Source: Sphaerolaimus hirsutus
Taxonomy: Eukaryota > Nematoda > Chromadorea > Monhysterida > Sphaerolaimidae
DNA: 64,000 nucleotides
NCBI GenBank assembly: GCA_964036195.1
Contig: OZ038460.1
Coordinates: 17,363,504 to 17,427,503, forward strand
Direction of reading: 5' to 3'
In this document: positions 206 through 58,739 of the stretch, piece by piece
How positions within the stretch are numbered: position 1 is the stretch's first letter
Layout of the letters: every line of letters begins with the position of its first letter
Translations under genes and position numbers: made by a program
Notes under the pieces: generated by a model
The model's database searches: none
What the model was told of the DNA's origin: nothing
Seen by the model: the letters and a program-made list of their open reading frames with translations, nothing else

Positions 206-3200
206 ATTGATTAGATCCTTGGCCGTGATGTGTTTCATTTCCGGGTGTTCAGTGCGCAAATAATCCATGAAACCAACAAGTGCGGCCAACTCCTCCTTTG
301 GAATTTTGGGTCGCCTTCTGCGGCGAATTTTCCGCCCAAAATAATGGATCTTCATGAAGATGTATTTCAGTTCTGCGATTTTGAGAAGTTATTTTGAATA
401 TTGCAGTGTAAATATGGTTGGGTTTTTGAGAGGATTTATGGTAACTCCCAAAAAATAGTGCAAGTTAATGTGAAAATGTCTAGAAGACAACAGTACAGTA
501 CCGCAGACTGTGCACATTAGTGTCGGCAATCACAAAATATTCCACAAAATTTCACAATTCACAAAAGTACTCGGTTCCAAAATCTGGTTGGCCCAGGGTT
601 CGGGTTGGTTCGGATCGGTTCGGATCCCAACACTAGATACCGTAAATGCTCTAATAATACAACAGGTCTCCAATAATACGACATCTCCAATAGTGCGACA
701 GGTTTGGGCACGTTGTGTGAAAATAATCCGACACTCTCCAATAATACGACACTCTTCAATAGTGCGACACCCGAGAAAAAAATAAAAAACATCGTAATGA
801 TGTCGCAATCTGCGGAAGCCGTGGATTCCGCGCTTTTGGACAATTGTTTTGTTAATGTTGATGTTTAATGGCGATTTAATGGGCGATTGTTGATGTTTAT
901 TGCTTTACTAAGTCATGCTCACGTTTGAGTTATGTGGACAATGAAGTTGTTGATTTGATGAAAACAATAATGCGACACTCTCTAATAATGCGACATCTCC
1001 AATAGTACGACACCTAAAAATGTGCTGAAAAAAATAGTACGACTGTCGTATTATTAGAGCATTTACGGTATACCGTATTTCCTCGAAATACCCACCCCCC
1101 CTCGTTTAACCCCCCCCTCTCTCGGGACCACTATGAAACAATCACCCCCCGGGGGGTATTTCGAGGAAATACGGTAGGTAGTAAATAAGGCAGCTAAGAA
1201 AGTTAATAAAAAGTAACCCGAGGCTGCCAAATCAGCACACATCGTCAACACTGCCAGTCCAAAAGTGACAAAACAGACAATGTAAACCACAGCTGCCATG
1301 CTGGTGGCTTGCATCTCAGCCATCGTCAAGTTGGCAACCTGCCAAAGAAACATTTTTGGGCCACTTTTAATCAAAATTGAAGAAAAAAAATCAGATTTAC
1401 CAGATTGAAAGCGATAAAAAATGCATCCATCAGAGTGTATTTCTCCTCGAAAAATCGCAGGCACACCGCTCCCAGACCGCAAAATAGCAATAAAATTGTG
1501 GCATTCACCCACAGGGGAAGTTTGCGTTCGGCTTCACGTTTTACTGCGATTTTGATGGTTGCATTGTGAGAATGTTGGAAGAGAGAGATACGACGGGTAG
1601 GAAAATGGGAGACGCCCACGGATTGGGTGTAACTTCCAGTCCCAGACACTGCAAAATGTCAAATGTCAAATGTCATGCAAAGTGTTAAAAGTCAGGTAAG
1701 TATTTTTAGGTGGTATTTTCAGTATTTTTTGACACTTTCCAGAGCATTATCCATGATTTTTGACACTTTGCATGACATTTAACATTTCTCAGGGGATTTT
1801 ACATGACTTTTGACACAATATTTGACATTTTACAGGGTCTGGTACCCAGGTTACCTTTCTTCCTTGCAGCCCTGCGTTTTTTACAAGCCTCACAGGTCCT
1901 TTTGTCGTGCTTTTTCTCCCCATCAGTAGTGGATCCATCTGTCTGCGCCTGTTGTTGCATCGCCAAACTGCACCTGAGGGAATTGAATTTTGTGTCTGTG
2001 AAGCTGACAAATGTTGACATTTCACTGACAATTTCACATGTCTTTGTCAATATGTTGTCAACAAATTTTCAATGTTTCCCTAAAATGCTTTTGAAATATC
2101 GAATTTCGTTTTCGAATCTTTCAAAACAATTAGGTATACAATTTTTAACACTGGATTCCCAATTTTGACAAGTTTTGAACATTTTCAACACTGGCCTGAA
2201 AAATAAATCAAAAATTTTTCCGAATTGTTGAAGTTGCAAATTTGATAATCAAAAAAAAATTTTCAGTGTTTTTCTGACCATGAATTTGGAAACATTTCCG
2301 AATTTCTGTCTGACATCATAAACGCGTGACTATAAAAAACCATAAATAAAGACCCTAAAAACAAAAAGAGCTCAAACCAACTTTCGCTTTTTCTTATTTT
2401 TCTTCCTAGCATTCAAAACATCCCAAGTGGAATCCCTCCTTCTACCAACGGCGGGCGAATTTCCCGCCGGTGCAATTTTCAAGTATTTTCTGCCCATGTC
2501 GCGTTTTTCTTTCCTTTTTTGTTTTATATACTTCATTATGGATGAGATGCAAGTGTGCGCATAGCATAGGCGTAGAATTTTACGCATCTGCGAAATTGTG
2601 CGGAAATGTAATGGACCTGCGCACAGTAGTCTTCAACGGAAGTTTCGAAAACTCATAAATAAGCTTTGAGCGAATTTGAGTTTTCTAGACGGAGTGATTT
2701 TTAATCTCCGTCAACTGTAGTTGACGGATAGCTCATACAAGTAAACAAAAATGTGTTCAAAGCTGATTTATGAGTTCTCGAAATTTTGGTTGAAAACTAG
2801 CGTGCGCAAAAAAATGAAATGTTTTTTTTTATTCTCAAGTGACGAACCCTAGTCACCAAATTCAGCAAATTGCAAGCATTCAAAGTTGTATAAATTTCCC
2901 ACCAACCTTTTTATATATAAATAGCAAGCTATCAGAGAGAAATCGGCCAATATCAACTGCAGCGATAACAGTCAACGGAATACCGATCATTCCATACAAA
3001 ATTGCGGCTATTTGACCCCTTGGAGTGGTGGGGTTCACGTAAGTGTAGCCTGGGAATATGTTTACTCAGATTTAGTTTGAGTATTACCTTATTTCCTCGA
3101 GCTACCCCCCGGGGGTGATTGTTTCATAGTGCTCCCGAGAGGGGGGGGGGGGGTTAAACGATGGGAATGGGTATTTCGAGGGGGGGTTATTATTTCGCAA

Positions 3201-6200: not shown

Positions 6201-8018
6201 AAAAGACACCAATGTACAGCAAACTAGGCCGTTAAAATCGTTTTAAATACCCCCAAAAAAGAAAATGACAATCAAATAAATCATAAATAACCCCCAATCG
6301 ACCTTTCTCATCCTAGCCACATAACCCAAATCCGGTTTCAAACCGCTGCTTTTTCTGGTAACCGCGCTCAGTTTCCTAGTACTGACAACACTCGTTTTCT
6401 GGGTTCGAATTTGGTCATTTTCCGGCGTGGCCGGCGCCAAATGAATCGACACTGGCGGGGAATTTGCATTTCCACCCGTTTTACCGATGGACGTTTTCAA
6501 TACCGCCACAGAGTCTCTGGGACCGCTCCCGGATCCTGTAACATCGCCCTGTAAAAAGTGCAAAGTGTTGTTTGCCGTTTTGCCGTAAAGTGCAAAAATG
6601 GCAACTTGTTTGCCTTTTTCCAGGACATTTTACATGACTTAAGACACTTAACATGACATTTAAAATTTTACAGAGCATTTTACATTTTACAGGGCAGTTT
6701 GCACTTTACAAGGCATTTTACATTACTGACATTTTACATTACTGACATTTTGCATGACAGGACATGTTACAGAGTCTTTCACATGACACTTTCCATTTTA
6801 CATGGCATTTCACAGGGTCCGGGAGTGGCACCTGGGCCGAGATCTGAGCAATGCGGTCGGGGGCGGCATGGGGTCGCTGCTGGCGGAGGTGGCGCTGTTC
6901 GACCTGCGCGGATGTATCGGGTACCCGGAAGTGGGATGGTTGTAGTGATAGTTTAGGACTTATGTGTACTGGAAAAGGTTAATGTTTTTTGGTATTTTAA
7001 ATTTTAAAGATGGTTAGGCAAAAAGGATGTGTAAATAATATTGGAAGTATAAATGTTCATTCTATGGTGAATTTTTTTCTACGCGATGGCGCTGCACACA
7101 CTAGTATAACCACCAAATTTGGCAAAATCGTAAATCTGTTTTGCACACATTTGAGTTTATGAGTTTCCCAATGTTCAATGGTGGGTGTACTAGCGTGAGC
7201 GGCCGCAATAAAAACCTTTGGTTATTATTCTCGCCTTTAGAAATGTTTAGCTGTATTTTACTAATTTTTTGATACTTCCTCAGCATCAAATGTATGGGGG
7301 GGGCACCAAACTCAAAGAAACACACAAAAACACTTCCGAAAAAATTTATTGATCACACAAACTCATCACCCCCCTCCAACACAACTCAAGAAATAAAACC
7401 ACAAAACCACAAACCCCAAAACCACAACAAACCTAGAAGCAGCATACCCCCGCAATCCATCCACTGACATCCAAGCCTCCTTGGGCGGCGGCGAGGGCGC
7501 ATTCATTCTGCAATCGCCTTGACAATCAGAGTTATTCAGATTGGTAATTTGATTAATTAAGGCGCCATTGATGGATTCATTTTGCACGCTCGCAGATGGG
7601 TGCTCGTTTTCGGTGCCGGTGCACATGGGCACCGGGTGGCAGTCCCGGACACTGGAAAATGGCAAGTGTGATGGTAAGTGTCAAAAGTCATGTGGAATGA
7701 TCTGGAGAATGGCAAGCGAGTTTGCATGACATTTACATTTTACATGACTTTTGACACTTCGGATTACATTTGAAATTTTCCAGGGTATGTTACATAAATT
7801 TTCACACATTGCACGACATTTTCCAGGGCATTCATTTTACATGACTTTTTTGCATGACATTCAAAAAATTTCAGAGAATTTTACATGACATAGCACTTTG
7901 CATGACATTCATTTTACATTACTTTTGACACTTTACATGACATTTGACATTTTACAGGGTCTGGGATTGGCACCGGTTCGCAGTCGGGTGGAGTTGAATT
8001 GAATTGATTTGTAGACAT
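206..8018 (-). CDS. Two-pore-domain (K2P/TWK-like) potassium channel-like gene, 3' end outside the window
   Basis: Exons in transcript order: 7974-8018 (ATG in good context), 7433-7632, about 6832-6950, 6303-6516, 5688-5903, 5068-5230, 2907-3049, 2382-2530, 1846-1973, 1401-1648, 1218-1338 and 206-372. K2P channels are dimers with four membrane helices and two pore loops per subunit, and set background K+ conductance at the plasma membrane. Here exon 5688-5903 has TM1 (LPHVFVNLVLLGYLAFGAWF), 5068-5230 the first pore helix, 2907-3049 the filter and TM2 (ILYGMIGIPLTVIAAVDIGR), 1401-1648 TM3, and 1218-1338 TM4 followed by KIHYFGRKI in the next exon, a TWK-like signature. Phases match from 6303 to the last exon seen; the exon 2382-2530 boundaries are the weakest. 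Both filters are abnormal: TTTGYT for TTxGYG, and ANLTMAE where TTxGFGD is expected. Joining of the exons above 6.5 kb is uncertain (phase conflict at about 6.95 kb). Four of its introns or exons carry palindromic introner-like elements. Confidence 0.8.
638..1070. mobile_element. TA-flanked inverted-repeat element in a K2P intron
   Basis: The ends are inverted copies, TACCGTAAATGCTCTAATAA on the left and its complement on the right. The interior holds repeats of AATAATACGACACTCTCCAA type. A TA at each end suggests a Tc1/mariner or pogo-like element. No transposase is visible. Confidence 0.6.
1071..1177. repeat. CCGTATTTCC repeat, short copy
   Basis: Starts ACCGTATTTCCTCGAAATAC and ends with the inverted form GTATTTCGAGGAAATACGGT. 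Runs of C lie between the ends, with the family's internal GGGACCACTATGAAACAATC block. This is the most compact copy of a family seen more than ten times in the window. Confidence 0.7.
1649..1845 (-). mobile_element. Introner-like palindromic element forming a K2P intron
   Basis: On the minus strand it begins GTACCAGACCCTGTAAAATG and ends GACATTTTGCAG. Donor choices at 1854, 1845 or inside the terminal repeat (GTAAAA) all leave the upstream exon in phase 1, which fits the acceptor TTTTGCAG|TG. This copy appears to splice through the terminal-repeat acceptor, because the outer end lacks a clear target duplication. Confidence 0.65.
2640..2800. repeat. Short palindromic repeat in a K2P intron
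   Basis: Two outward copies of an ACTCATAAATnAGCTTTGA-like block flank a CCGTCAACTgtAGTTGACGG hairpin. A related hairpin (AACAGTAGTTGACGG) is at about 9.77 kb. Confidence 0.45.
3084..3533. repeat. CCGTATTTCC repeat, long copy
   Basis: Left end is degraded (TACCTTATTTCCTCGAGCTACC) and right end is GTATTTCGAGGAAATACGGT. Between them are long G runs and a conserved 200-bp core (AGACTAATATTAGTACG, then ACGTGTGTTCTGC) shared with copies at 46.98 and 58.74 kb. No coding capacity. Confidence 0.7.
3565..4792. mobile_element. Introner-like element interrupted by a hAT-like MITE
   Basis: Flanked by CCTGG on both sides (3560-3564 and 4793-4797). Its ends are TGCACTCTCAGACC and GGTCTGGGAGTGTC. The interior repeats units such as GACATTTTACAGGGTC and GTATCCAAATATTA. 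It lies in the K2P intron between exons 2907-3049 and 5068-5230, so it has not split an exon. Confidence 0.65.
3579..4389. mobile_element. hAT-like non-autonomous element with GCACCGG interior
   Basis: Terminal inverted repeats TAGTGATGTTAAAGGCACCGG-type are flanked by perfect 8-bp duplications CTCAGACC (3571-3578 and 4390-4397). Both ends are arrays of GGCACC/GGTGCC words. The central part (about 3660-4160) is unrelated unique sequence. It is inserted exactly in the terminal repeat of the surrounding element. Confidence 0.85.
5395..5612. mobile_element. Degenerate introner-like element
   Basis: The right end GGGACTGCCCC and internal TTTTCGACACTTTCCATGAC match the family. The left end is poorly preserved. 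It lies in the K2P intron between exons 5068-5230 and 5688-5903. Confidence 0.45.
6517..6831 (-). mobile_element. Introner-like element within K2P N-terminal coding sequence
   Basis: On the minus strand the left boundary is GGCCCAG|GTGCCACTCCC and the right GGAGCGGTCCCAG|AGAC, so the duplicated CCCAG supplies a 3' AG. Taken as an intron it is GT-AG. Splicing at the terminal-repeat sites (CCCT|GTGAAA to TTTTTACAG|GG) would also be in frame, adding a few codons. The two options imply different reading frames for the upstream exon. Confidence 0.65.
7633..7973 (-). mobile_element. Introner-like element within the first coding exon
   Basis: It splits an ATG-initiated reading frame. Minus-strand flanks are GCGAACCG|GTGCCAATCCC and ACTGCCACCCG|GTGCCC, with CCGG duplicated. 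Precise removal joins MSTNQFNSTPPDCEP to VPMCTGTENEHPS and keeps the frame open to a donor at 7432. The resulting intron would be GT-CG, not GT-AG. Confidence 0.65.
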
Positions 8019-24167: not shown

Positions 24168-26196
24168 TCATTGATGCAGGTGTACTGCTCTGGTATGCTT
24201 GTCCATGCTTCCTTTTCGAGAAAATGTCAAGTCACATTGACTGCACCTATGTGGTCGTTGTTGCAAGTGGACTACCCTAGGAGCAGTCCCACACCCTGTA
24301 AAGTGTAAAATATCATGCAAAATGTTAAACAAATTAGTATGCAAAATTTTGTAAAACAAACATGTTAAACACATCACACACATAAGTGTCAAAAGTTATG
24401 TAATAGGGTTGGGAATTTCAAAATTTTCAGGTTCAGGTTCAGGTATTGAGGTCAGGTATCGGGTCGGGTTTTCAGGTCAAAATGTCGGGTATCAGGTAAT
24501 AGGATAGTTGGGTATCAGGTAATAAAATCACCTGGTATTAGATTGAACAAAAAATACAGCATGGTGTAGTGTATCTATCACAAGGTGGATAATTAAATGC
24601 AAAAACACATGGAGACACAACAGTTATTCCAAAAAAATCAAGAAAAAAGCATGACCATTGAATTGTGATATAAAACATAACCCCATTTGTCATGGAAGAA
24701 CATCACATCATGGTGGATGAGCTCCTAAAAATAGTGAAACATATTTTTGGTGGATTCAGATTGACTTAAACTGTTACCTCAACTTGCTTGAGTAATAACT
24801 GCCGAAGCCATTGCACTGTGAACCTAAAAGAAATATGTTACAATGATTCTTAGTAATCATTTCCAATTGAGCTTCACCAAAATTAATTAACTAAACCTTG
24901 AGCTTAATTGACTAAACCCCACCTAAATGTTTCAATAGTGGTTAAAACATATTAGTTAATGGTGGCAGTATTCCAGTGGCATTCACAGGATCGCAATAGG
25001 GTGTAACTGTTGGCACCCACTCAAAATATCAATTCTCATTGCCTGATTCCAAACTGTTGTAAACTCAACTGTGTGAACATTCTGCAGTTGAGCAAACAAC
25101 TTTTTCTAAGTTGCTCTGGCACTGTGCCTGGCAGTGCATCCAGTGAAACTGTCTACCTCACTGGATCAGTACAACTGGATACCCTCTGAGGAGAAAACAG
25201 AAATCAAATGCACCCAGATATCTGGCAGCCATTTTGGCCGAGAGAAAGGAGCTTTATCTTCAATTGAATCAATTTTTCAAATGTGAATGAAAGCATGCAG
25301 TACAAAATAAAACTGTATCTGAACTAATTGAAACAAACCAATTAGAAGTGTCTAAATTACAACTGCACCAAACAACAGGAAGTTGTATTCACAACACTTT
25401 CAAACTGCTTGAAAGATTGAACTGTGGGAAACTTCTGCGTGGATTTTCAGGTATTGAGTGTGGGCTCGGGGTTTTGAGGTCGGGTATCAGGTTCCGGTTC
25501 GGGTAACACAGTCGGGTTTGGGTATCAGGTTTCGGTTACAAAAAGTGTGTGGGTATCGGGTTTGGGTCCCCAACCCTATTATGTAATAATTTATTTTGCT
25601 TTTTATTTTTTTTTACAATTTCCACAACATTTGACACCTTACAGGATGTGGGACTGCCACCTGATATGCTTATCCAAATCACCTTTTCGTGCAAATGCTG
25701 TATCACACTGACTGCACTTGTGTGGTCGTTGGTGCAAGTGAACTGCTCTGATATGATTCGACAATATCCAGTTGAGGCTGAATGCCTTACCACAATGCAC
25801 ACACTTGTAGTTTCTTTCTCCAATGTGCACAGTTCTCAGGTGTTTTGTTAATATACTCCGTCGGTAGAAAGCCTTCCCACACAACCAACACTTATTTGGC
25901 CTCTCACCCAGATGCACAGATCCCATGTGCTTGTTCAAACTGTCTAGCCAACCGAATGCCTTGCCACAGTAGCTGCATTTGTACTGTTTTAGCCCCAGGT
26001 GGACAGCATTCACATGTCTCAAAAGGTTATTTTGAGAGAACGCCTTGCCGCAATGCTCACAGCTGTACGGCCGCTCACCCGTGTGCACGCGCATGTGTTC
26101 GTCCAGAGACGGCCGTGTGGGGAATGTCTTGCCGCAGAGAGTGCACTGCTTGCCCTGCCTGGTCTGTGCCCTGCGCCGTGCAGTGCGCGGGTGCAT
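24168..26196 (-). CDS. C2H2 zinc-finger protein A, seven fingers
   Basis: CDS 25661-26196 plus 24168-24276, 645 nt in total, 214 aa, starting MHPRTARRRAQ. An upstream acceptor (GCCTCGCAG, about 26.25 kb) implies a separate 5' exon, which I do not find. The product is a probable nuclear DNA-binding protein with finger linkers of HTGERPY and HLGxRPxxC types. Fingers begin at CTLCGKTF, CEHCGKAF, CSYCGKAF, CWLCGKAF, CVHCGKAF, CSQCDTAF and CSQCDLTF. The second has only 11 residues between Cys and His. The sixth is split by an introner-like element; removing 24277-25660 as a GT-AG intron gives HIRVVH with correct His spacing and the natural stop after HLHQ. Its targets are unknown. It belongs to a family with the genes at 30.6, 50.0 and 56.9 kb. 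Confidence 0.85.
24277..25660 (-). mobile_element. Introner-like element splitting finger 6 of zinc-finger gene A
   Basis: Minus-strand boundaries are CATATCAG|GTGGCAGTCCC and CTGCTCCTAG|GGTAGTCC, a GT-AG intron. Without the hAT-like element nested in it, about 200 bp remain, the usual family size. The terminal repeats also carry CCTGTAAGG and CTTTACAGGG, but splicing at those sites would shift the frame. Confidence 0.85.
24404..25578. mobile_element. hAT-like element nested in the zinc-finger A introner
   Basis: Ends TAGGGTTGGGAATTTC and GTCCCCAACCCTA, with perfect TTATGTAA duplications (24396-24403 and 25579-25586). Arms are rich in CAGGTATCGGGT-type repeats; the interior is unrelated. A partial relative lies at about 29.1-29.2 kb. 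Confidence 0.85.
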
Positions 26197-26465
26197 CAGC
26201 TGCACGAGCACGCTGAGCTGCTCGCAGCCCCGCCCCGCCGCCGCCTGCGAGGCAAATCTTCCAAATGAATGCATGCACGTTTTCTTTTAATCACTATATT
26301 TTTTACATTTTGCAGGGAACGCACATATTTTAAGGTGCATAGTTCCGTTTTCGTGTTGCTTTCGTCTAAATATATGGAACAGAAGAAAAAAAAACAGAAA
26401 TTTCTGCACGCACTGTAGCGACTTCGCCGGCAAACAACCAACAACAGTAAAATACGCATTCATAT

Positions 26466-27030
26466 TAGGGTGTCAAAAAAAACTTTTTACGGAAAACGGA
26501 AACGGAAAAAAAATTTCAGCGGAAAACAGAAACGGAAACGGAAAAAAAATTTAAGTGGCCGGAAAATGGAAAAAGGGGCCGGAAAAACGGAAAAATGGAA
26601 TTCGCATGGAAATGGAAAAATTTGCTGAAATTTTGCCAAAAACGATAAAATTCACTGAAATTTTGCTGGAAACAGAATTTTTTATACATAATTGACAATC
26701 TGCATGACTGTTTACCAGTTTGGCTGGAACAGAAAGCCAAAAGTTGAGCCAGAAAAGGGTAAAATGAGGCGGAAAGCAGAAAATTGAGGCGGAAAACGGA
26801 AAAAAGGCGGAAAAACTGGAAATTGAGCCGGAAAACGGAAAAAAGGCAGAAAAACTGAAAATTAAACCGGAAAACAGAAAATGACCCAAAAAAACGGAAA
26901 CGGAAAAAAGGTGGCCGGAAAACGGAACAGAAAACGGAAAAAAAATTTCACCAGCCGGAAAACGGAACGGAAAACGGAAAAAATTTGCCTGCAGAAAACA
27001 GAAAACGGAAAACGGAAATTTGACACCCTA
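26466..27030. mobile_element. hAT-like element, TAGGGTGTCAAA family
   Basis: Ends TAGGGTGTCAAAAAAAAC and TTTGACACCCTA, with perfect ATTCATAT duplications (26458-26465 and 27031-27038). The whole interior is GGAAAACGGAAA-like, so all frames look open and highly biased. These are not genes. Confidence 0.87.
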
Positions 27031-27038
27031 ATTCATAT

Positions 27039-29459
27039 CACATTTAAGAAAAAAAGTCACCAAATTAACCATTTAATTCAAACGTGCACAGTTGCGCGTA
27101 GTGTTCCACAGCGCAATGCAGTTCGAACAGCAAGCGGTCGCTCCTTAATCATAAGTGAAATTGCCCATCTGAAGGGGGAAGGGAAATGTGTGAGTTGGCT
27201 CAGTGCCAATCGACTAGAATAGCGGCTGTTTGATCCAGAAAACACCAACCCTCAGTTCAAACTGCGTATCTGCATACATGCTTCGAGTGGAAATAGATTT
27301 TAAATGGACTGTGTGATAAATCTGGCCGCACAACCAAGAATAACGAGCTTTGAATCAAAACACGAACGCAGGCTTTTATTTTTTTACAGAAATGACTTGT
27401 TTTGGATACATAAATGAATATGACCTCTGACCAGCTAGACACAATAGATGAAAAGCATCGTAACATTTTGCGAAGACGCACTGCCACAGTGGACACAGTA
27501 GTTTTCCCGTGCACTGAGCAAAAAATCAGCTGGATGAAGCCCCACGCACGAACAACAGTTGTTACTGAAGCAGCTGAAGGAAGAGACCCCGTATGGGAAC
27601 TTGGCAGTCGACCAAAATTTAAAAAGCGCTATCAATATAAAAAGGGCCACAAAATAACCAAAAAATGACCGGTATATAACCGGTATGTAGACGAGAAATA
27701 GCGATTACGAAGGTGAAAATTGGGAAAATGGAGCACATTTTAGCGATTTTAAGCAAAAAGTGAGGTTGAAAATGCAAAGTATAATACGCAACCGGTAACT
27801 TGGACGTATGCCAAGTCTCATACAAGACCCAATCCCAGCTGCACGCTCGGGCAGGTAGCGACGGCAAACTGAAAATTGAAGAACATGTTAAAAGCTTCTA
27901 TTGTCGAATTAATTCAATAAATTCGAAAACGTTTTCGAATATTCAAATTGTAGTTTTCCATCGTTATGCGCAAAGCGGTCGGAAGAAATGGGCACCGCGA
28001 TCGCTACCACACTCGTGATGGATTCTCAATCAGGATGGTTAAAAAATCGGCATTCCCTCAACCGCACCGCACCAGCGTTTGTGTCACTGATATTGATGCT
28101 TTAGCACTCAGAAATTCAAAATGATCAGAATCCTGTGGATATTTCATTCTTGTCAGAACTCAAATTTGTCATAAGAATAATCACAAATGATGTCACAGAT
28201 ATGTAACGCACAGTAATGCAATTAAATAATACATAAAATACACAGTCTACTGAAATGTTAGCATACCTATTTTAATGGAGAGTTTATGTACAAAACTTAC
28301 TGACAGTATTTATGATGAAAAACTGTTTGGTGTTTGGTTCTTATTCAAATGGGATATCTATGCTGCTATTTAGATCTCTTGTAAAGTGTGTATACTCGGC
28401 GGACATGATACTATACAATGAGTTGCATGATGTCATATCATGCACGCTGTATCCAACCCGTAGAACTCTGTTTTGGTGACTCGTGCTCACGCATATACGG
28501 AGTGAAACTATTCAATTGTGCCCGCACAATTCAAACCCCCCGACAAAGTATAGTTGAGTTTTTTGGCATGATGCCATCCAAGCGTCGTCTGGATGGACAG
28601 CATCTGAATAAATACAAAGCGGGAACGTTTTCTGAATTCAAAATTTTGAACGTAACAAGTTTTCTTCAAAATGAATCGATAGCATGTAACTTTTCTAAAA
28701 ATGAATTAGATCAAACGTAGGTAAACGTATAATCAAAAATTTGCAGCACCTATCGGCACAAAAATTGGAGTAAACGAGTGCGTAAAGAACCGCACATTTT
28801 TATTTTCCTTTTTATTATCTTTCCATTTTCTTTTTTAATATTTTCATTTGTCGTTCACTCCGTACAAGAACAAAATTTAACTTTCCAATTTTGTAGAATG
28901 ATATGTCCGTCGACTATACATATTGACATATTTACAACCCACTGTGCACCGTTTTTCTACCGTAGTTAAGATGTATCGCACTTCGCTGTTCAGTAAGATG
29001 TTGAATTTCATTGACGCTCAGCGAAGCGAAACATAAGTGGACCAAACCTGTATTATATCATGTCTGTCGAGTATAACCAGTAAATTTTTTTATGGTTTGT
29101 GATAGGGTTGCGAACCTGCCCTAAATCCTGATACCCACACAATTTTTGGAACCAAAATATGATAACCAAACATGACTCTTCTACCTCAACCCGGTTTTAC
29201 ACCTGACCCCAGATTTTATTAGGATGGCGTGCCTGAAAGGTTGCTAACAGAGTTGTTAAAAGTACCAAACTTTTTGCAAAGTATACGTAAACGTAAAGTA
29301 TTTATTTTTTCACTCACTCCCTGAGTACAGAAAACGTAAAGTAATTTTTTACTTTTACTCATGAGTAAACATTAGTAAAATACTTTTCCCCCCAGAAAAC
29401 GTAAAAGTGAGTATTTTTCAGGGATTTTGCCCCAATTTTCATTAAAAATCAGCAATTTA
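27039..29459. other. Intergenic, no supported gene
   Basis: Contains scattered short open frames without recognisable domains (for example 27414-27668 and 28418-28720). A CAGAGTTGTTAAAAGTACC end starts at about 29.24 kb and relates to the hAT-like family at 32.7 and 50.85 kb. About 29.1-29.2 kb is a fragment of the TAGGGTTGnGAA family. Confidence 0.4.
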
Positions 29460-29607
29460 CTGTATTTCCTCGAAATACACACAGGGTTATTTTTTCAGAG
29501 TGAGAATTTTGCGGGGGGGGGGGGGGTTAAACGAGGGGGGTATTTCGAGGGGGGTTTATAAGTTCACAGTGACCATTTTGAGGGGGGTATTTCGAGGAAG
29601 TACGGTG
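29460..29607. repeat. CCGTATTTCC repeat, short copy
   Basis: TACTGTATTTCCTCGAAATA on the left and TATTTCGAGGAAGTACGGT on the right around G runs. Internal block ATAAGTTCACAGTGACC. Confidence 0.6.
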
Positions 29608-29894
29608 AATACCGTTTTGACCATTTTAACCTTCAGATTCACTAGTTCATGTGTTATTTGCCTATTTTCAGCTATTTTTGGTATTGTTTTGTTCCTATTT
29701 TTTGCTTTTCTCTCCATTTGCCAATCTATGCATCGAAAAAGCCTATAACAAAGCCTATTTGGGATACATTTTCTGTACTCAGGACTTTCAAAAAGTATAC
29801 GTAAAAGGGAGTACAGTAACTTTTTTCAAAGTATACATAAACGTATTTACTCAGTACTCAAGTATACGTACTTTTTGGGTATGCTGGGCTGGGC

Positions 29895-29928
29895 TTAGGC
29901 TTAGGCTTAGGCTTAGGTTTAGGTTTAG
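29895..29928 (+). repeat. Interstitial TTAGGC/TTAGGT telomere-like tract
   Basis: Three TTAGGC units are followed by two TTAGGT units and a partial one. TTAGGC is the nematode telomere unit. The tract lies between the end of a CAGAGTTG-type element and a repeat starting TGCTGGGCGCATTTG. Confidence 0.6.
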
Positions 29929-29929
29929 T

Positions 29930-30340
29930 GTGCTGGGCGCATTTGTAAAACGTCATGCAAAGTGTCAATTGCCATGACAAATGTAGTAAAGGGTCAATTG
30001 ACATCTCAAATGTCAAGCAAAGTACAATTGTCATGAGAAATGTCATGCAGAGTGTAAATTGTGTATCTGAATCTTGTTTTGGCATACAAATTTTATGTTT
30101 TGTTTCCAAATGCCCACATAAGATTTGGTTACAAAAACCACAACAAGATTTGGATACAAAAGATAACATTTGGATACAATTTGCTTTACAGTTTCCACTT
30201 TAATTTATATTTGTCATGACACTAATTGTCAATTATTGACACTTTACTTAACATTTGTCATGACAATTGACACTTTCCATTTCATTTCATATGACATTTT
30301 GACACTTTACATGGCTTGGGACTGCTTCAGCTCCATGAAT
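29930..30340. repeat. GTCATGACAATTGACAC repeat family copy
   Basis: Starts GCTGGGCGCATTTGTAAAA and ends TTACATGGCTTGGGACTGC. The interior has GTCAATTG/CAATTGAC palindromic units and GTTTTGTATCCAAAT-like blocks. A second copy occupies about 57.94-58.41 kb, and both continue into the same AT-rich sequence. The CTTGGGACTGC end resembles the introner terminal repeat, so it may be a larger relative. Confidence 0.5.
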
Positions 30341-30605
30341 AAACAGGTTGAACAATAAACAACAGAAAAAATTTTTTTACAAAAAATATGAATTTTTATA
30401 CAATTTTTACAAAAATATGAATTTGTATACAATTTTACAAAAAATTTACAAAAATTCGAATTTTTATACAATTTTTATTTTTATTTTGAAAGTTTCCATT
30501 TTATTTTATTTTATTCTTCAATTTTCCATTTTATTTTAATTTGATTCTTTTCTGAGATTTTGCCAACCCTGGTCAAGAATGACAAAAACATCACTTTAGC
30601 ATGCA

Positions 30606-33600
30606 TCATTTTTCAACAACAACAGTACAAGAATGCATCCTTTCCTTGGGGCAGTCCCAGACCCTGTAAAAAGCGCTGTAAATTTCCAAATGTAGTGCAA
30701 AGTGTCAAAAGTCATGTAAAATGCCAAGCAAAAAAGCGAATCGTTCGTCATTTTGCAGGGCATTTTCCATGACTTTTGACACTTTGCGTGATATTTGACA
30801 TTTTACAGTGCATTTTACAGGGTCTGGGACTGGCACCTGGTGTCTCTTCAGCGCTACAAACGACCTAGGGGCGTAGCTGCACTGGATGCATTTGTTCGGC
30901 CGCTCACCCAAGTGCACTGCGAACACGTGAGCCTTCATATTTAGAGGTGTCGCAAATGCCCTGCCGCAGTGCACGCACTCGTGTTCTCTCTCACCAAAGT
31001 GCACAGTTCTGACGTGAACAGTCATGGTAGACCGACCGTATGCAGTGACAGCGCAAAATGGACATTTGTGCTTTCTCTCGCCCAGATGAACCGCCGCCAC
31101 GTGCGCGGACATCAGCGTTTCAGTGAGGAACCTCTTGCGGCAGTGGGTGCACTGGTGCGGTCGGATACCCAGGTGGATACCATGCACGTGTTTCCTCAGC
31201 GCACTGCGCTCGGCGAACGCCCTGCCGCACTGCTGGTAGACGTACGGTCGCTCGCCCGTGTGCACGCGCATGTGCGAGTCCAGGGGCAGTCCCGGACCCT
31301 GTAAAATGCCCTGTGATATGTGGAATATGATGCGAAGTGTTGAAAGTCATGGAAAATGTTCGGTAAAATGGCAAACGTACGTTACCGGGCATTTTCCATG
31401 ACTTTTGACACTTTGCATGACATTTGACAATTTACAGGCCTTTTCCCAGGGTCTGGAACTGGCACCAGTTCAGCTCTGGAAGAATACGCCTTCCTGCAGT
31501 GGGTGCATTTGTATGGTTGCAGACGCAGGTGAACACCTCTCATGTGTCTCTTCATGTTGCTGAGTATACTGAATGTCCTGCCGCACTGCTCGCAGACGTA
31601 GGGACGCCCGCCCGTGTGCACACGCATGTGTGACCTCAGCTGCCGCTGTGATGCCAGTTTTTTGCCGCAGACAGTGCATATGTGTGGTCGTAGGTGAAGG
31701 TGGACAGCATTCACGTGGTGCTTCAAAGCACCATCTACAGAGAACGCCCTGCCGCACTGCTGGCAGACGTACGGCCGCTCGCCCGTGTGCACGCGCATGT
31801 GCACTTTCAGTTGTTGTTGCGACGCGATTGCTCTGCCGCAGATAGTGCACTCGTGTCGTCGCAGGCCAAGGTGGACAACATTCACGTGTTGCTTCAAAGT
31901 ACTACGTGCGGGGAACGCCTTGCCGCACTGGTCGCATACATGCGGCAGGTCGCGCTCGCCCGTGTGCACGCGCATGTGCCTGTTCATATTGCCCGGTTGT
32001 GAGAATGTCTTTCCGCACTGTGTGCACTCGTGCGGTCGCAGGCCAAGGTGGACTGCTTTCACGTGTCTGTTCAAATGACCGTGACTGGAGAATGCCATGC
32101 CGCAGTGGTCGCAGCTGTGCGGCCTCTCGCCCGTGTGCACGAGCATGTGTCTGGTCAGATGGCCACGTACACTGAAAGATTTGCCGCACTGGTCGCAGCT
32201 GTGCGGCCGCTCGCCCGTGTGCACGCGCATGTGTGCGACCATATGCCGCCGCGTGCTGAGTGTCTTTCCGCACAGGGTGCATTGCTTCCCCTGCATGGCC
32301 ACAGTGCCGCCGGGGGCAGTCCGCGGGTGCATGAGCTGCACTTGCACACTGAGCCGCTCGCAGCTCCGCCCCGCCCCAGCCGCCTGCGAGGGGAATGGCT
32401 GTGCAGTGCTGCGACCATAGGGGATTTTTGGGGTAGCATTTTAGTGGGGAGGGGGGGGTGGGGTCACCAAACTTTGATGTTGTCACATTCTGTCGTACAT
32501 TAGCTGATTTTGATGTCCTTCGAGTATGTTGGGGTTCGGGGTAGGGGCAACAACCATTTTTTTTGTTTTGTCGAATAATCCTACAGTCCCGAGATAAGGG
32601 GGGTCTACAAAAGCATGGTCATTTTGGCCGATCAGGTCGATTGACTTCGGAGCTCAATAACTCGGCCATTTCTGGGCCGATTTCGACCATTCAACACTTA
32701 AGATGATCACGACATCCTGTAGATACCAGAGTTGCGAAAGTGTATTTACACTTACCCAAAATACCCGGGTAAATGGGTATTTATATTTACACTTACACTT
32801 ACACTTTCATAAAATACCCATACACTTTTTTTACACTTTCCAGGGCAAAATACTCGGGTACAGAAAGTGTATTTTTTTTCAGATGGCCCTGTTTTATGCT
32901 TTTGAGAAAGCACTGAATGTAGAAAATATGGCAAATGTACGAACTAGCCTTTGATCTAAATACAACCTTTGATCAGTACTCATGGTATTCTACAGTTTCA
33001 TCATACTTTTGTAAAAAGGACAAGATCAATGGAAGTTCACCAACTGGACACACAGTCAATGATGGGTAAGTTCTCCAAAAAAAAACACTTTCTGTGTTTT
33101 GAGTTTTTCAAAAATGAATACCTGTGTTTTGAGTTTTTTTCTCGAAAAAAACTTGAGTAACTCTGTTTTTATTTCTGTGTTTTTTGTAAAAACTTGAGTT
33201 TTTTTTGAGTTTTTTCTAAAAAAACTCAAGTTTTTTTTCTCCAAAAAATTCAAGTTTTCCCCCCCAAAAATTTCGTTTTACAGCATTTCGATCTGGAAAC
33301 AGTGGTTTTCTTATAAAATTTTGGTTTTACACATGCTTTAACCCCAAATAACACTTGTGTATTCATTCAAGTGTCAAAAACATCCATAAAAATGTCCACA
33401 ATGAGGACATCAACACCACAACACCAGCAACAAAATGCCCAGAAACGACAATTTAAGCAGTACTCCAAAATTCTTCAATGGATGTGCACTGTATGGAAGA
33501 CTACAGAATTAATTTGAACTACAACTACCATTTACCTCGAAATACCCCCATGGGAGTTTATTATTTCATCAGAAAGTTTAGTAAGGATCATAGAAAATAG

Positions 33601-41564: not shown

Positions 41565-41670
41565 TCAATGTGCTACACATTCTAACATAAAAATCGTTCT
41601 ATATGAATGCATGCTCTTAACATACTAAATGGGGTGCATTTATCTACTGCCATACCAAATTTGAACAGTT

Positions 41671-44600
41671 ATACTGTTATCATGTGAAGGTAAATATGCA
41701 TGTGATAATTTATGGCATGGCACTTTTAGAAAATTATTTATTTTTCTAGCGTTATCAATAGTGGCTATAGATTTAGTCGCATTAGGAGATTTGGTGGACC
41801 AACACAGTTGTCGAAAGTGGTATGTTCCATTAGACAAGCTTCTAATATTCCTCAATAAAATGACAATTTATGTGATCATATTCATATGCTTGCTGCGCGC
41901 GCGCCGGTGGGGTGGTAGCATGTATCACGTAGCTTTTCTACTGGTTACATTACTACAGTTACCGAGTGTTGAAGCTAGTAATGACAAATTGAACCTTGGG
42001 ACAACCGGCACACTAATGTCATTGATTGCACTATCTGTTGTGTATCAGAATGCTCGATGTTTAAAAAATCAAGCACAGTGTTTACTAAATACTGTCAAAA
42101 AAAACGGTGCAGAAATACTGTGCTTTACTGAGACACAATATACAAATGCTTCTGAAAGCAAAATCATAGCTGGGTATAATGTGCTCCATGTGTTCAAAAC
42201 AACAAAAAATGCTGGGGGGATTTCTGTTTTCCTACGTAAAGGCTTACGATTTTCACAAAATAAAATCTCCAGCTCAGTGGATCAAAACGTCCTGAGTTTG
42301 AAACTTACAAATCATCCAGGTTTAGACAATACAGAGGGCAAAAGCCAGAACTTAAACATATATGTGGTGTATATGGAAAATAATAGCAAAGTGAAAAAAT
42401 CACAGTCAATTCTCACTCTTAACAAACAGATATTAGAGGAGTTGGAATCACATGTATCAAAAAATAGATGCAGTAGAGAGAGTACATTGATACTCAGAGA
42501 TTTCAATGGACATATAGGGTGTGACGACCTGGGTATCACGGGAAATGGTGTATTGATAAATACCAATGGCAAATTGGTACGGGATTTCCTATGTAACACT
42601 GGGGTGTCCCTTCTGAATAGGGAAATGAAGGGACTGTGGACCTTCAATAGGAGAAATGCGCAATCTGTGATCGATCTGTGTCTCCTTGACGGTGAAATAT
42701 CACTTTTGAACGGCGAGGTAGATGAATGTGGGCAACTTAGTAGTATTCAATCAGACCACAATGCTATAGTCATGTCATTTGAATATCGTATAGACAGATA
42801 TCATCAAAAATGTAAACTTACTAGACCTAAGAATATGAAAGATGAGATCACATTTCAAAGGGATTTAAGGAAACATAATCCTTCCAATTATGATACTCTT
42901 CAAAAAGCCATCACAGCAGTGGCGACTAAGACCCAAGATGTAGAAAATGGCAGAAATGTGCCTACTGTGATTAAAAAACAGTGCAAGAAGATTGCTAAGC
43001 TAAGGCGTAAACTCAAAAAGGGTAAAATTAGCCAGATAGGCTCATATGAGTCAAGTGGCCTACATGATGAACTTAGGCAAGAGAGAAGGAAACTTAAGAA
43101 TATAAAAACCATTATAGACAGAGAGAACAAAGAAAAACATATAAAATATCTAGCTAATAGCAAGACAAAGAGCCAACAGCAAATGTCGGAAATATTCAAA
43201 AAGGTCAATCTGCTTAGAGGTGATGGGAAATCAACTGTCCACACTATCCATGACAAAGATGGCATTCAAATATCGAGTGCGGCAGCAATGAATACTGAGA
43301 TGGGCATAGCATGGGGAATAGTTATGGAAAAAAACCCAGGTGCCAACCTCGATGAGCTGGGAGAGATAACACCGATAAATTCAAAGCAGAAGGATGTACA
43401 AAAACTGAAAATTCCGATCACACTGATAGAGATTGAGAAGTCAATCATACTTCTGAAGAATAACAAGTCTGCCGGCACAACAGGGATTTATCACGAACAT
43501 TTAAAACTATTAGAGGAAGACAATCAACAGCTTCTGTGCACTATATACAACAAGTGGCTACAGGGAGAAGAAATACCCGATGACGCGGCAATGTGCAAAA
43601 TGATACTACTACACAAAAAAGGAGACAAGGGGGATCTCAGAAACTATAGAACACTGGGCCTCTCGTGCAACATAAAAAAGGTATACATGTCCATCCTGAA
43701 TAGAAGACTTATAAGGTGGCTAGAAGACACGGATGCTCTGACAGAAATGCAGGGGGGGTTTCGCCCCGGAAGAAGAACATTAGACAACGTTCAAATAATG
43801 AAGGCTTGCTACAATTACGCCAAAACCAATGGCAACCCATTCATCATGTGCTTCGTAGATGCAGTAAAGGCATTTGACAGAGTAGATAGAAACAAACTAT
43901 GGAAAAAAATGGAGATGATGGGTATCCCAGTTGAATTGATTGTAGCCATCTCAAACGTGTACATGAAGACAAGAGCAGTTATGACATATGGAGGTTATGA
44001 AAGTGAGATTATGGAATACTCACTAGGAGTTATTCAGGGGTGTGCTCTAAGCCCGACTCTTTATGCAATATATATACATGATTTGGCGTGTGAGCTGATG
44101 GCAACAGGCATGGGTGCCAAATGTGGATACAATCAACATAAAATTCCAGCGCTGTTCTTTGCTGATGACATAGTCTTGATGGCCTCAAAAGATAGTGAAC
44201 TAAAACATTTGCTCAGTGTATTTAGTGGCTGGGCGTGGAGATGGAGCGTTAGCATAAATGCATCTAAGAGTGAAGTGCTGAGATGGGGCTCTCACAGCAT
44301 TGAACAGAAAGAATGGCATATACATGTAGGAAGACCAGATCAGGGCAAAAAAAGAGGTGATTAAAGAGACAAAATCAATAAGATACCTAGGTGTTACAAT
44401 AAACACAGGTGGTGATCCATTTGAACAGCACAAAGACAATGTAATTGTAAAAATGAAGAAATTAAGTGCACTAGCTATAAATGCAGCACGTAACACAATA
44501 TCACCCCTGCATACAGGCTATATAACCTGGAAAGCATATGTTGAACCAGGGAGTATGTACGGTGTGGAGGTTACTGGACTAGACAAACAGCATCTTGTTG

Positions 44601-46294: not shown

Positions 46295-46978
46295 CCAATA
46301 ATGCTGTACATAAACAGATAGATTTTCTGGAGAAAATCACTCACAAATTTCTCTTGCACAGATTACATGTTTTAGTCATAAAGTGCAATCATTGCACCAC
46401 AATGTATCAAGTATGAGTGATTTTCTCAGTGATTTTTTTTCAAATTTAAAAAATATATATAAATATATCACTCAGAATTTGGAAAAAATATAAATATATC
46501 TAAATCTCAGGTTATTTATATTTATTGTGATTTTCGAAAATATAAATCACGGGTTATTTTTCGAATGCTAACTATAGTTTCCGTCCCGTCTGTTGCTCGG
46601 CTTGGTTTGCGCTCAGTAAGGGTCAAATATTGGTTTCCATTACGCTGGCTAAATTTCGTGCGTGTGGTCGATTTTTGCTCGATTACACGACCCCCACCAC
46701 CAATTTGGCATCGGAATGGATCAAAGGTTGAATGCGATGGGGATTAACCACCCATTCGATGGAGATTATATGGCCACGTTTCTTAGTAATGGCTCCAATT
46801 AAACGCGTTCTTAAAGTTTAAAAGAAATAGTTTCAAGAACACAAGGGCAAGATAAACTAAATTTATTTCAAAGAATTTTTGTTGAGTAGCATTTTTCCGC
46901 ACAGCTCAAATTTTTATATATCTCCAAATTTAAAAGTATAATTTATACTGGCGGCGTGCCAAACGGGACGGAAAGTGT
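46295..46978. other. AT-rich stretch without a supported gene
   Basis: Contains AAATATATATAAATATATCAC blocks as near 40.28 kb, then apparently unique sequence. No domain or splice structure recognised. Confidence 0.35.
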
Positions 46979-47430
46979 ACCGTATTTCCTCGAAATACCC
47001 CCCCCCCCCTTGAAATACCCCCCCTCGTTTGACCCGCCCCCCTCTCGGGACCACTATGAAACAATCACCCCCCCCCTCGAAATACCCCCCCCCAAAATTG
47101 AGTGTAAAGGGAACGTACATGACAATAACTGTAGTTTGTGTTCTGTGTACTGCAGAACACACGTTAAAACAATGTCGGTGTCACGTTAGAACAGTGTACA
47201 TACCATCTACATACTAATATTAGTCTACAGAACCTTATAAATGGCAGTTTTCGTGCATTTTTCGACGTCTGCGTACGTTTCAGACGACAATTTCGTACTT
47301 GGTTTTCAAAAATTTGTATGTGAAATAATAACCCCCCCCTCGAAATACCCCCCCCCCTCGTTTAACCCCCCCCTCTCGGGACCACTATGAAACAATCACC
47401 CCCCGGGGGGTATTTCGAGGAAATACGGTA
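46979..47430. repeat. CCGTATTTCC repeat, long copy
   Basis: Ends ACCGTATTTCCTCGAAATAC and GTATTTCGAGGAAATACGGT, C-runs, and a conserved core (ACGTGTGTTCTGC in inverse, CATACTAATATTAGTCTAC, TTCGACGTCTGCGTACG). Same core as 3084-3533 in opposite orientation. Confidence 0.75.
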
Positions 47431-49983: not shown

Positions 49984-52900
49984 TCAGTACTTCTCGCAGG
50001 TGTGCTGCTGCTCACCGGCCGTGTGCACGTCTTCATGTTTCTTCAGATATCCCCTTGTGGAGAATGTATTGCCACAGTGCGTGCACTCATGCGGTCGTAG
50101 GCCAAGGTGCACAGCTTTCACGTGTTTGTTCAGGATACCGCGAGTAGAGAATGCCTTGCCGCACTGCTCACAGACGTACGGCCGCTCGCCCGTGTGCACG
50201 CGCATGTGAGCCTTCAGACCCCCTTGTGAGGACAATGTCTTGCCGCACACAGTGCATTGTGTGTCTCTGCTCAGCTCGGTGGTGCACTGGGGCTGATCCC
50301 GCACCCTGTAAAGTGTGAAGTCAAGTGTCAAATGTCATGTAAAATGTACATACTGTATTTACTCAAATAATTCCCCTGGGGAATTATTTTTTTGTCAGAC
50401 ATTTTTGAGGGGGGAACTATTCAAGGGGGGAATTAGTCAAGTGGTGAAATTATTATTTCCTCTAATTTTTCAAGTATGTTACCGTCGCACAACATACACA
50501 TGTACCGTACTTCCTCGAATTACCCCCCGGGGGGTTATTTTTTCAGAGTGAAAATTTTGAGAGAAAAACGTGAAAAATGCAACAATAACCACCATTTATA
50601 AGTTTTTACAGCCTTTTATAAGGATGTAGATGGTATAAACGATGTTCTAACGTAACACAGTGTTTTGAACGTCTGTTATGCATTTCCCGAACCACAATAT
50701 CATAGTGCCCATTGTGAGGAGGGTATTTCGAGGGGGGGGGATTTCGAGGAAATACGGTATTTACGTCCAATTTCCATTCGTAGTGCACATTCCTTTGCAT
50801 CCTTACACACCGAATGTGCTGCATTTATATTCGATGAATCAAACGAGGCACCAGAGTTGTTAAAATACCGGTATTTTTGGAAAGTGTAAGTGTAAGTGTA
50901 AATACACTTTCCAAATTTTGAGTATGGATACCAAAAGTGTAAGGTATTTTAAAAATACCTAGGAAAGTGTAAAAAAAGCGTAAGTGTAAAAAAAATTTTT
51001 AGAAAGAGCTCTCACTGTTGAGCATTAGAATACACCACTGTTTTCACCTGTAGATCAATATATTCGTCATTTTTATGCATCATTTCACATTTTACTGCCT
51101 TTTATGAAACATTTCAGACTGTAGCATATACTGTAGTGGTATGAAGTTCACTAATAATGGCACTTTTTCAGTGTTGATATTTACTGATTAAGCAATGTGA
51201 TACACACTGCTTAAATGCAAGATTGGACATGCAGCAAATGTCAATGCAAAAGCCAGTTGACTTTGTGTCCAGCTGGTGAATTTCCATTGATCTTGTCCTT
51301 TTTACAAAAGTATGATGAAACTGTATAATACCATGAGTACTGATCAAAGGTTGGAGATCAAAGGCCAGTTTGTACATTTGCCGTATTTTCTACATTCAAT
51401 GCATAACTGCATGTGTGCACTGTGCAGTTATTTTTTGTACATGACCCTATTTTATGCTTTGACAAAAGCATAAAACAGGGCCATCTGAAAGAAAAAAATA
51501 CACTTTCTGTACCCGGGTATTTTGCTCAGGAAAGTGTAAAAAAAGTGCATGGGTATTTTATGAAAGTGTAAGTGTAAGTGTAAATATAAATACCCATTTA
51601 CCCGGGTATTTCGGGTAAGTGTAAATACACTTTCGCAACTCTGCGAGGCACTCTATTTTGCTTGGTTTGATTTCATCGATTGTCTTTTTAATAAATGTGC
51701 ATTATTTATTCTCCATCATTGTGGAGGGGGAATTATTCAAGTGGGGGAATTATTCGAGTAAATTCTGTATATAAAAGCACAAAAAGACAAGATTTTATTG
51801 ATGAACTTTTGACACTTTGTATTACAATGACAAGTTTGTTTGTATGACATTTTCCGCAGCATTTGACATTTTACTCAGACTTTACAGGGTCCGGGATTGG
51901 CACCTGGAGGGTAGCGTAGTGTACAGCTCTGAGGTGACCAGCCAAACCTCCTCGCTGACTGAAAGCCCTACCACACAGCTGGCACTCGTGTGGCTTCTCA
52001 CCAAAGTGCACTGCTCTGATATGTGCAGCCAAGTCTGACTGCTTGCTGAATGCACCGCCGCAGAGTGTGCACTCGTGTGGTCGTAGGCCAAGGTGCACAA
52101 ACGTCACGTGTCTGTCCAAACTCTCGGGTAGAGTGAACGCCCTGCCGCACTGCTGGCAGACGTACGGCCGCTCGCCCGTGTGCACGCGCATGTGATTGTT
52201 CAAAGTGTTTTGTGAAGACAATGTCTTGCCGCACTGGGTGCAGCTATATGACTGGAGCCGGTCGCCCGTATGTGCGACACGCATGTGCGACTTCACATTT
52301 GTTTGTAAGTCAAATGCCTTGCCGCAGAGAGCGCATTTATATGGTCGCACGTCGAAGTGAACAGCATCCACATGTTTCTTCATACTTTGCTTCACAGCGA
52401 AAGCCCTGGTGCCAGTCCCAGACCTTGTAAAATGCTCTGTAAAATGCCAAATATCATGCAAAGTGTCTAAAGTCATGGAAAATGAATTGCAAAATGGCAA
52501 CTCGGTTGCCATTTTGCAGGTCATTTTCCATGACTTTTGACACTTTGCATGACATTTGGCATTTTACACGGCATTTCACAGGGTCTGGGAGTGCCCCCTG
52601 CCGCACAGTTCGCAGACGTACGGCCGCTCGCCCGTGTGCACGCGCGTGTGATGATTCAGATATCTTCTCGAGGAAAACGCCTTGTCGCAGTGAGTGCACT
52701 GATGCGGTCGCAGGCCCAAGTGAACATCATTCACGTGAGTCTTCAGACGCTGCTGTGAAGGGAATGCCTTGCGGCAGTGTTCGCACGCGTACGCCTTCTT
52801 GCCGGTGTGCACGAGCATGTGAATGCCCATACTCCCGCGTGTGTAGAATGCCTTGCCGCAGTGGGTGCACTGGTGCGGTCGCAGACCCAGGTGTACGGCG

Positions 52901-57345: not shown

Positions 57346-58413
57346 CTGGTGCCACTCCCAGACCCTGTAAATGACCCTGTAAAGTGTTAACTACCCTGTA
57401 AAATGTCACGTGTCATGTAAAAGACTCTGTAAAGTGTCATGTGTATCCAAATTTTGTTTTATTATATCCAAATCTTATTTTATCATATCCAAATCTTATT
57501 TGATTGTAGCCAATACCTGTTTTTTGTATTTTATCCATAAAAAAATTGTTGACCTGTAGTACTCATGTACAGGGTTGGTTTTATAAAAATTATTTGTATA
57601 CAAATTGTATAAAAATTGTATACAAATTGTATTTTATTGTAATTTTATTCTTGTATCATTTTATTTTATTTTTTTTATTCCCAAAAGTCGTTAATATAAT
57701 AAAATGACACCATTTTACAAAAATTTTACAGAAGTTTACAAAAAAGTACAAAATTTCCGAATCATACATGCAAGCTCAGAAAAATGTTATCATCATACCT
57801 CTACATGAAAAACATGTGACAAATTTTTCCATTACTTTACAAAAGCTGCATGCAGTAGGCATTGTTAGCTATCTGCACGTGTAAACTTACAATTATTGAT
57901 AACAATGGTTTGCATTTCCAGTAGAAGGACTACTGGAGTGCGCTGGGTGAATTTGTAAAATGTATTGCAAAGTGTCAATTGTTCTGATAAATGTTAAGTA
58001 GTGTGAATTGTCATGCAAACTGTCAAGTGACATGTCAAATGTCAAGTAAAGTGGCAATAGTCATGACAATGTCAGGCAAAGTGTAAATTGTGTATCCAAA
58101 TCTTATGGTTTTGTATCCAAAGCTTATGTTTTGTATTCAAATAGTTTTTTTGTATCCAAATGTTCACATAAGATTTGAATGATCAAATAACAAGATTTGG
58201 ATACAGAACATAATATCTGGACACAACAAATAGTTTTGGATACAGTTTGCTTGACAATTTACACTCACAGTTTATATTTGTCATGACAATTGACACTTCA
58301 ATTTATATTTGTCATGACAATTGACACTTTACTTTACATTCATCATGACAATTGACACTTTGCATGACATTTTACATGACATTTAACACTTTACAAAGCT
58401 TGGGACTGCCCCC
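57346..58413. mobile_element. Introner-like end followed by GTCATGACAATTGACAC repeat
   Basis: The left part (GTGCCACTCCCAGACCCTG, then GTATCCAAATCTTA blocks) resembles the element at 3565-4792. From about 57.94 kb it is a copy of the 29.93-30.34 kb repeat, ending GCTTGGGACTGCCCCCAG. Whether these are one element or two abutting ones is unclear. Confidence 0.5.
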
Positions 58414-58739
58414 AGTTCCACAAAAAACAGGTAGAAGCTCAAGCAGCAATATATTTTTCTTACAAAAATATGAATTTTTATACAATTTTACAAAAATTTG
58501 AATTGTTATACAATTTTACAATAATTTTACAAAAATTCAAAATTTTTTACAATTTTTATTTTTATTTTGAAATTTTTCATTTTTTATTATTTTATTTTAT
58601 TCTTAAATTTTCCATTTTATTTTCATTTTATTTTTATTTTTTTTTCTGAGATTTTGCCAACCCTGCTCATGTAATTAATTTTATGGCGTAATGTTACGCT
58701 TCGCTTACGTCAAATTCACGTTGAGCTGTAATATCAACT

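Follow-up and report, generated by a model that had tools for sequence, protein, structure and literature searches.

Hairpin elements at the locus

The stretch of DNA analysed here, hereafter the window, comprises 64,000 nucleotides of the nematode Sphaerolaimus hirsutus (contig OZ038460.1, positions 17,363,504 to 17,427,503; C16:17363504-17427503 in the genome as searched). It carries on its minus strand genes for C2H2 zinc fingers and for a putative ion channel, the domain of which at 2880-3065 is backed by a Pfam match (Ion_trans_2, E=1.3e-6). Seven copies of one hairpin transposon family lie within the finger genes or in open frames upstream of the channel gene (Table 1). The family is probably an introner, a transposon that generates introns, which arose in a nematode from a non-autonomous hairpin miniature inverted-repeat transposable element (MITE) of the NuwaI type (PIF/Harbinger-like, with a CWG target).

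A preliminary description made from the letters of the window had placed the seven copies correctly to within a few bases. Its account of shared termini and a self-complementary interior also holds: the window holds 14 occurrences of the terminal repeat that it gave when up to three mismatches are allowed, with 0 expected from 100 shuffles, and strong hairpins are predicted. The genome-wide search with the terminal repeat that it proposed covered 348,482,957 bases in 762 contigs and found 757 + 743 exact matches to the 19-mer element end (1500 in all; reversed control 0). A 22-mer of the element had 0 matches in viral contigs, and a 17-mer matched 86 prokaryote contigs (80 listed), which is on the order of chance by a hand estimate of about 30.

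The anatomy was read from 96 stretches (L095-L190) taken around listed exact matches on contig C1, a sample biased to young copies and to one contig. Left ends were matched to right ends in 118 pairs, 100 of which are oriented and non-redundant. Taken over 79 copies of 140-200 nt, from the fetched stretches and the window, the consensus is a near-perfect hairpin of 189 nt, the predicted fold of which is a single hairpin of -164.6 kcal/mol with only a 5-nt loop and the terminal GTGC and CCCC unpaired. The predicted folds of three window copies have -83.6, -107.6 and -134.4 kcal/mol, compared with -38 to -41 when the bases are shuffled. In Caenorhabditis elegans, transposons including Tc1 are removed from mRNA in a hairpin-dependent manner (SOS splicing), and Tc1 removal was reportedly described by Rushforth and Anderson in 1996; the stable inverted-repeat pairing which a substrate of such excision requires is present in the predicted folds.

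The terminal inverted repeats (TIRs) start with GGGG at one terminus and GTGC at the other. On the coding strand a short repeat flanks each of the seven window copies. A length of 4-5 bp had been proposed for it and is rejected, as some copies lack a repeat of the flanking C and G; what is duplicated is a 3-bp target, C-W-G, mostly inside CCWGG, in agreement with the CWG duplication of the NuwaI type. Identical target copies among the 100 oriented copies are CAG/CAG in 32 and CTG/CTG in 27.

Copies in coding sequence

Thirty frames (29 joined across an excised element, one not), picked by eye as gene-like, were submitted to Pfam. The alignments span eight excised junctions in seven proteins, all outside the window and two by weak matches, and in all eight the GT-bearing end is on the 5' side of the coding strand. 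At these junctions we infer that the ends of the copies are intron boundaries. Three of the proteins are presumably BCKDHA (L142), cyclin Y (L143) and SLC23 (L144), and the Srx chemoreceptor domain of L138 is taken to be nematode-type. The joined OSCP1 exons, whose boundaries, like those of L103, were placed by eye, match best a protein of Plectus sambesii (55% identity over 89%), and Trichinella and Toxocara are found in the first 25 matches among many molluscs and other animals (120 of 878 matches listed), which fits a nematode host that probably has no close relative in the database searched. The few ordinary OSCP1 introns that were read end GT...AG.

In L103, L124 and L152 the Pfam domain adjoins the junction and does not span it. 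At L103:8509-8879 the copy lies by reading at an exon-intron boundary (CCTG/GT) in a gene with a MYND domain; the end of this exon is preserved only if the GT of the element is the donor or the element is excised.

In the window, excision had been said to rebuild four C2H2 fingers. Finger-type matches were found at all four junctions tested, with uneven strength: zf-C2H2 spans the junctions of 24280-25660 (E=1e-6; the joined finger reads C-x2-C-x12-H-x4-H) and 31283-31465 (E=1.2e-6), that of 30648-30836 is spanned by weak finger matches and by none to PF00096, and the match across 52409-52597 is below the curated cut-off. The claim that all copies lie within coding sequence can apply to none but the seven listed ones; other copies and ends in the window are intronic by reading or unassigned. 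Of the seven, 6520-6831 and 7636-7973 are putatively coding, as judged by open frames, the joined frame of the former having 0 Pfam matches.

Table 1. Copies and ends of the element in the window (positions of the window) and junctions crossed by Pfam domains in fetched stretches; ends are given on the coding strand, a slash marking the boundary of the element
Feature	Position	Strand	Ends	Pfam match (E)
Copy in open frame upstream of putative channel gene	6520..6831	-	CAG/GTGCC...GGTCC/CAG (GT-AG)	
Copy farther upstream of putative channel gene, GTG at both ends	7636..7973	-	CCG/GTGCC...CCAC/CCG (GT-CG)	
Copy with nested sequence, in C2H2 finger	24280..25660	-	CAG/GTGGC...CTCC/TAG (GT-AG)	see text
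189-nt hairpin copy, in C2H2 finger	30648..30836	-	CAG/GTGCC...CCCC/AAG (GT-AG)	see text
183-nt hairpin copy, in C2H2 finger	31283..31465	-	CTG/GTGCC...CCC/CTG (GT-TG)	see text
Copy with nested sequence, between fingers	50290..51903	-	CAG/GTGCC...GCCC/CAG (GT-AG)	
189-nt hairpin copy, reverse sense, in C2H2 finger	52409..52597	+	CAG/GGGGC...GCAC/CAG (GG-AG)	see text
Older copy, by reading in intron of putative channel gene, beside GTAACC donor	1633..1851	.		
Single recognisable end adjoining C2H2 finger, partner end uncertain	57349..57367	+		
Further copy / single end, by reading in intron, or no gene assigned	3563-4793; near 5602			
OSCP1, two junctions	L109		first site ends AG, second TG	OSCP1 (9.9e-42)
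Junction crossed	L144		GT...TG	Xan_ur_permease (1.7e-19)
Junction crossed	L138		GT...TG	Srx (1.8e-7)
Junction crossed, set by eye	L110		ends AG	zf-C2H2 (1.8e-7)
Junction crossed	L143		ends AG	Cyclin_N (4e-7)
Junction crossed	L142		GT...TG	E1_dh (1.7e-4, just under curated cut-off)
Junction crossed	L119		ends AG	VWD (0.016, weak)

The flanks of the copies, once joined, have longer open reading frames (ORFs) than random sites (median 367.5 against 285 nt, p=8e-8, in 76 pairs outside the window that include a few doubtful or duplicate ones). In an earlier set the median ORF was 342 nt at joined sites, 291 at CCWGG sites and 252 at random sites; hence part of the openness is due to site composition, because CCWGG sites alone exceed random ones. 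This would agree with the family being an ordinary MITE that favours GC-rich CCWGG and hence exons, its exonic copies being recent, damaging or heterozygous and kept in the mRNA. The restoration of the frame on exact cutting, the main argument of the preliminary description, proves little in this respect, because any transposon insertion with a target duplication would give it. Many of the fetched copies are near-identical (they were chosen so), and some occupy introns or DNA with no gene assigned. This explanation is nevertheless unlikely, as two copies are spanned by the OSCP1 domain of a single gene, the copies at 24280-25660 and 50290-51903 have nested inserts and yet still lie in open finger genes, and it does not provide for the strand bias and the 3' AG asymmetry described below.

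On the coding strand, GT stands at the 5' side in six of the seven window copies, and four are GT-AG. Under a different explanation, the hairpin would be recognised in the mRNA, the element cut out and the ends ligated by a non-spliceosomal route, whatever the terminal dinucleotides. The very stable predicted hairpins and the nematode host agree with it, and so do the GT...TG copies spanned by Pfam domains and the reversed copy within a finger. The duplicated Srx-type G-protein-coupled receptor (GPCR) genes L137 and L138 point the same way: they carry a common GT...TG copy, their alignment is identical in 974 of 1293 columns, and by reading about 2 positions separate their exon halves, against strong divergence in the next intron. 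This suggests that the GPCR gene stayed useful with the GT...TG copy in place.

Strand of insertion

Of 102 copies compared with no coding strand assumed, 61 had the longer joined ORF on the strand that carries GT on its 5' side and 39 on the opposite strand (p=0.017); a protein-likeness score favoured the GT-5' strand in 62 copies and the opposite one in 40 (p=0.0016). For ORF length and score respectively, the test gave p=0.34 and 0.014 in copies with 3' AG alone, and p=0.06 and 0.13 in those with 3' CTG alone; the signal was absent in the 15 copies with 5' CTG, CGG or CCG and 3' CAG. An amino-acid classifier built on average amino-acid frequencies is weak, with 14% of the 117 copies above the 95% null quantile, and chose the strand judged wrong at three sites (the second of OSCP1, that of the cyclin gene and that of L103). 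Its calls with a score >10 and a margin >5 were 15 for the GT-5' strand and three reversed (L152, L156, L164), under thresholds fixed after the table had been seen and with L174 (repeat-like) and L108 (GT at both ends) omitted, while the statistical test of the calls used 16 against 3, with L108 still included.

At L127:642-819 a reversed copy has a GGGG end that reads GCAG on the coding strand and would give GC...AG, the strand being assigned by eye and having no Pfam match.

Asymmetry of the 3' target copy

The whole genome was also searched for pairs of ends, each matched exactly and separated by a spacer of 141-170 nt; the pairs were read on the GT-5' strand and pooled irrespective of exonic or other location, and every reversed control gave 0. 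The counts, which are lower bounds, were 229 for CAG/CAG, 116 for CTG/CTG, 58 for CTG/CAG and 22 for CAG/CTG. Without selection or insertion preference, both members of each pair would be alike, and the two mismatched classes differ (58 against 22, p=7e-5); the 2x2 table of the counts gives a Fisher p=4e-10. At other terminal positions the background is 12/811 cells for T-to-A and 14/721 for A-to-T; in the 3' target copy the corresponding figures are 58/174 and 22/251. Both mismatch classes thus lie above background, so something besides selection, e.g., mispaired ends, inflates mismatches; the class that gains AG exceeds its background far more than the class that loses it. Among the 100 oriented copies the mismatched pairs were 9 against 1, one of the nine (window 57353) being probably a false pairing. 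A broader count of the sample gave 12 AG gained and 12 lost, most of the lost ones being by eye one-base shifts that keep AG. For example, the cyclin-domain gene L143 has CTG in the 5' target copy, presumably the conserved Leu codon of cyclin Y, and CAG in the 3' copy. We read this as a drift of the 3' copy toward the splice AG, the pattern that selection for a 3' splice site would be expected to produce.

It might be argued that these CAG/CTG asymmetries reflect the chemistry of transposition at asymmetric ends and have no relation to splicing. The excess of 229 to 116 taken alone is compatible with that, but the 58:22 mismatched pairs and the long frames on the GT-5' strand are poorly accounted for, and we regard this explanation as highly improbable. 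The same results bear on the removal of the element as an RNA hairpin. SOS splicing is independent of orientation and terminal dinucleotides and would predict neither a strand bias nor a drift of the 3' copy to AG, both of which are found. As the full account hairpin removal is therefore rather unlikely; it could coexist with a spliceosomal route, and it has been demoted here to a possible first step, not the whole story, because alone it predicts neither bias.

Putative splice sites and a proposed birth of introns

The introner reading may be put as follows. In the simplest history, a symmetric element with GGGG at both ends would be ancestral, and one terminus would have turned into GTGC; its transposase would presumably be of the NuwaI type. 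The GTGC terminus would provide the GT of the 5' splice site and, the opposite terminus being a C-run, the duplicated target CAG behind it would provide the AG of the 3' splice site, such that removal at CAG/GTGCC...CCCCCAG/ would give back the original exon. Sense insertions on CTG would begin as GT...TG, be partly tolerated, and tend to acquire AG via T-to-A in the 3' target copy with the codon in the 5' copy untouched. Hairpin-dependent excision or inefficient GT-TG splicing could carry them meanwhile. A two-step birth of introns, with structure-dependent removal of the RNA hairpin (or stem-aided GT...TG splicing) followed by conversion to GT-AG via a single T-to-A, is put forward only tentatively.

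Several observations weigh against the introner reading. The GT-AG rule is broken in three of the seven window copies (one GT...TG, one GT...CG and one reversed GG...AG), and four of the eight Pfam-crossed junctions are GT...TG (the second OSCP1 site, L138, L142 and L144), as is window 31283-31465. A GTGCCA donor is weak by metazoan standards. Splicing at the internal ACAG of the element would leave 19 nt and shift the frame; the options that keep OSCP1 in frame, worked out by hand, need exon sequence: the internal ACAG would be paired with a GTAC donor lying upstream, or an AG farther downstream would be used at the cost of 18 nt, and either would change conserved residues. Only 10 of the 30 submitted frames have a Pfam match and 20 have none. 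Reversed copies occur in coding frames at 52409-52597 and, by reading, in L139 and L152, the exonic placing of the last resting on reading as its Pfam domain stops short of the junction. The CAG/CTG class (22/251) is itself above the A-to-T background, the pair counts are minimum values, and a preference of the asymmetric ends at insertion could account for the 229:116 excess. The proposal of the preliminary description that a hairpin MITE generates introns is supported by the Pfam-crossed junctions, the strand bias and the 3' target asymmetry and is qualified by these broken splice sites; its observation is partly confirmed and its interpretation partly supported.

Other repeats in the window

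Right ends resembling the element at 30307-30370 and 58391-58460 have similar downstream flanks and perhaps belong to a related longer repeat. Frames like those of long interspersed nuclear elements are found at 41665-44364 (+), open over 899 amino acids, and 62806-63864 (+), part of the former having 24-37% identity to reverse transcriptases (among 120 relatives listed); as an indicator of the taxon a frame of this kind proved uninformative. A recurrent repeat with GGGGGGTATTTCGAGG-like runs, several frames of which are open, occurs near 29520-29600, 46914-47180 and 58725-58910. The segment 26480-27030 is a low-complexity GGAAAACGGAAA repeat, like runs being found in the L137/L138 GPCR intron. 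At about 29890-29930 there is a short CTTAGG run of TTAGGC-like units, which we take to be the nematode telomere motif.

Relation to known systems

Like Tc1 under SOS splicing, the present family is an inverted-repeat transposon apparently tolerated in nematode exons; unlike it, its strand and 3' AG bias points to splice sites. A survey of DNA-transposon introners reports only two animal groups with introners and GT or AG drawn from target duplications (PMC9860276). The present family resembles these in having TIRs and a short duplication of the target, in inserting into exons and, putatively, in carrying one splice site while the other comes from the duplication; it differs in the nematode host, the full-length hairpin, the CWG target and the frequent GT...TG exonic copies.

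The target had been thought perhaps undescribed, but a CWG duplication and TIRs starting with GGG are already hallmarks of NuwaI, a group in the PHIS (PIF/Harbinger, ISL2EU, Spy) superfamily for which the hosts given are all animals (12 bony fish, a beetle, a crustacean, a mollusc and an anthozoan) (PMC4482050). The present element shares the 5'-CWG-3' duplication and, at one end, the GGG start; it differs in being non-autonomous, in its 189 nt and in the GTGC at the other end. An autonomous NuwaI partner would be expected to encode a DDE transposase together with a Myb/SANT protein. In larvacean tunicates 95% of introns escape GT/AG (PMC13326754), which would be a parallel for putative non-GT/AG introns in an animal, whereas the few ordinary OSCP1 introns read here are canonical.

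The origin of new introns is an old question, and a nematode study discusses why the sources of gained introns went unfound (PMC9169325). A literature search of limited depth found no nematode introner family, a statement that extends to that search only. The principle is already known. What looks new is the host, together with the form of the element as a hairpin, its NuwaI-type origin and the step from CTG to CAG that can be seen in the copies. CTG/CTG, CTG/CAG and CAG/CAG copies together in one genome would let the birth of an intron be traced stepwise, and an abundant, young-looking family would test if hairpin structure replaces a proper 3' splice site. The two-step birth, if true, would connect the origin of introns with the excision of transposons from mRNA in nematodes.

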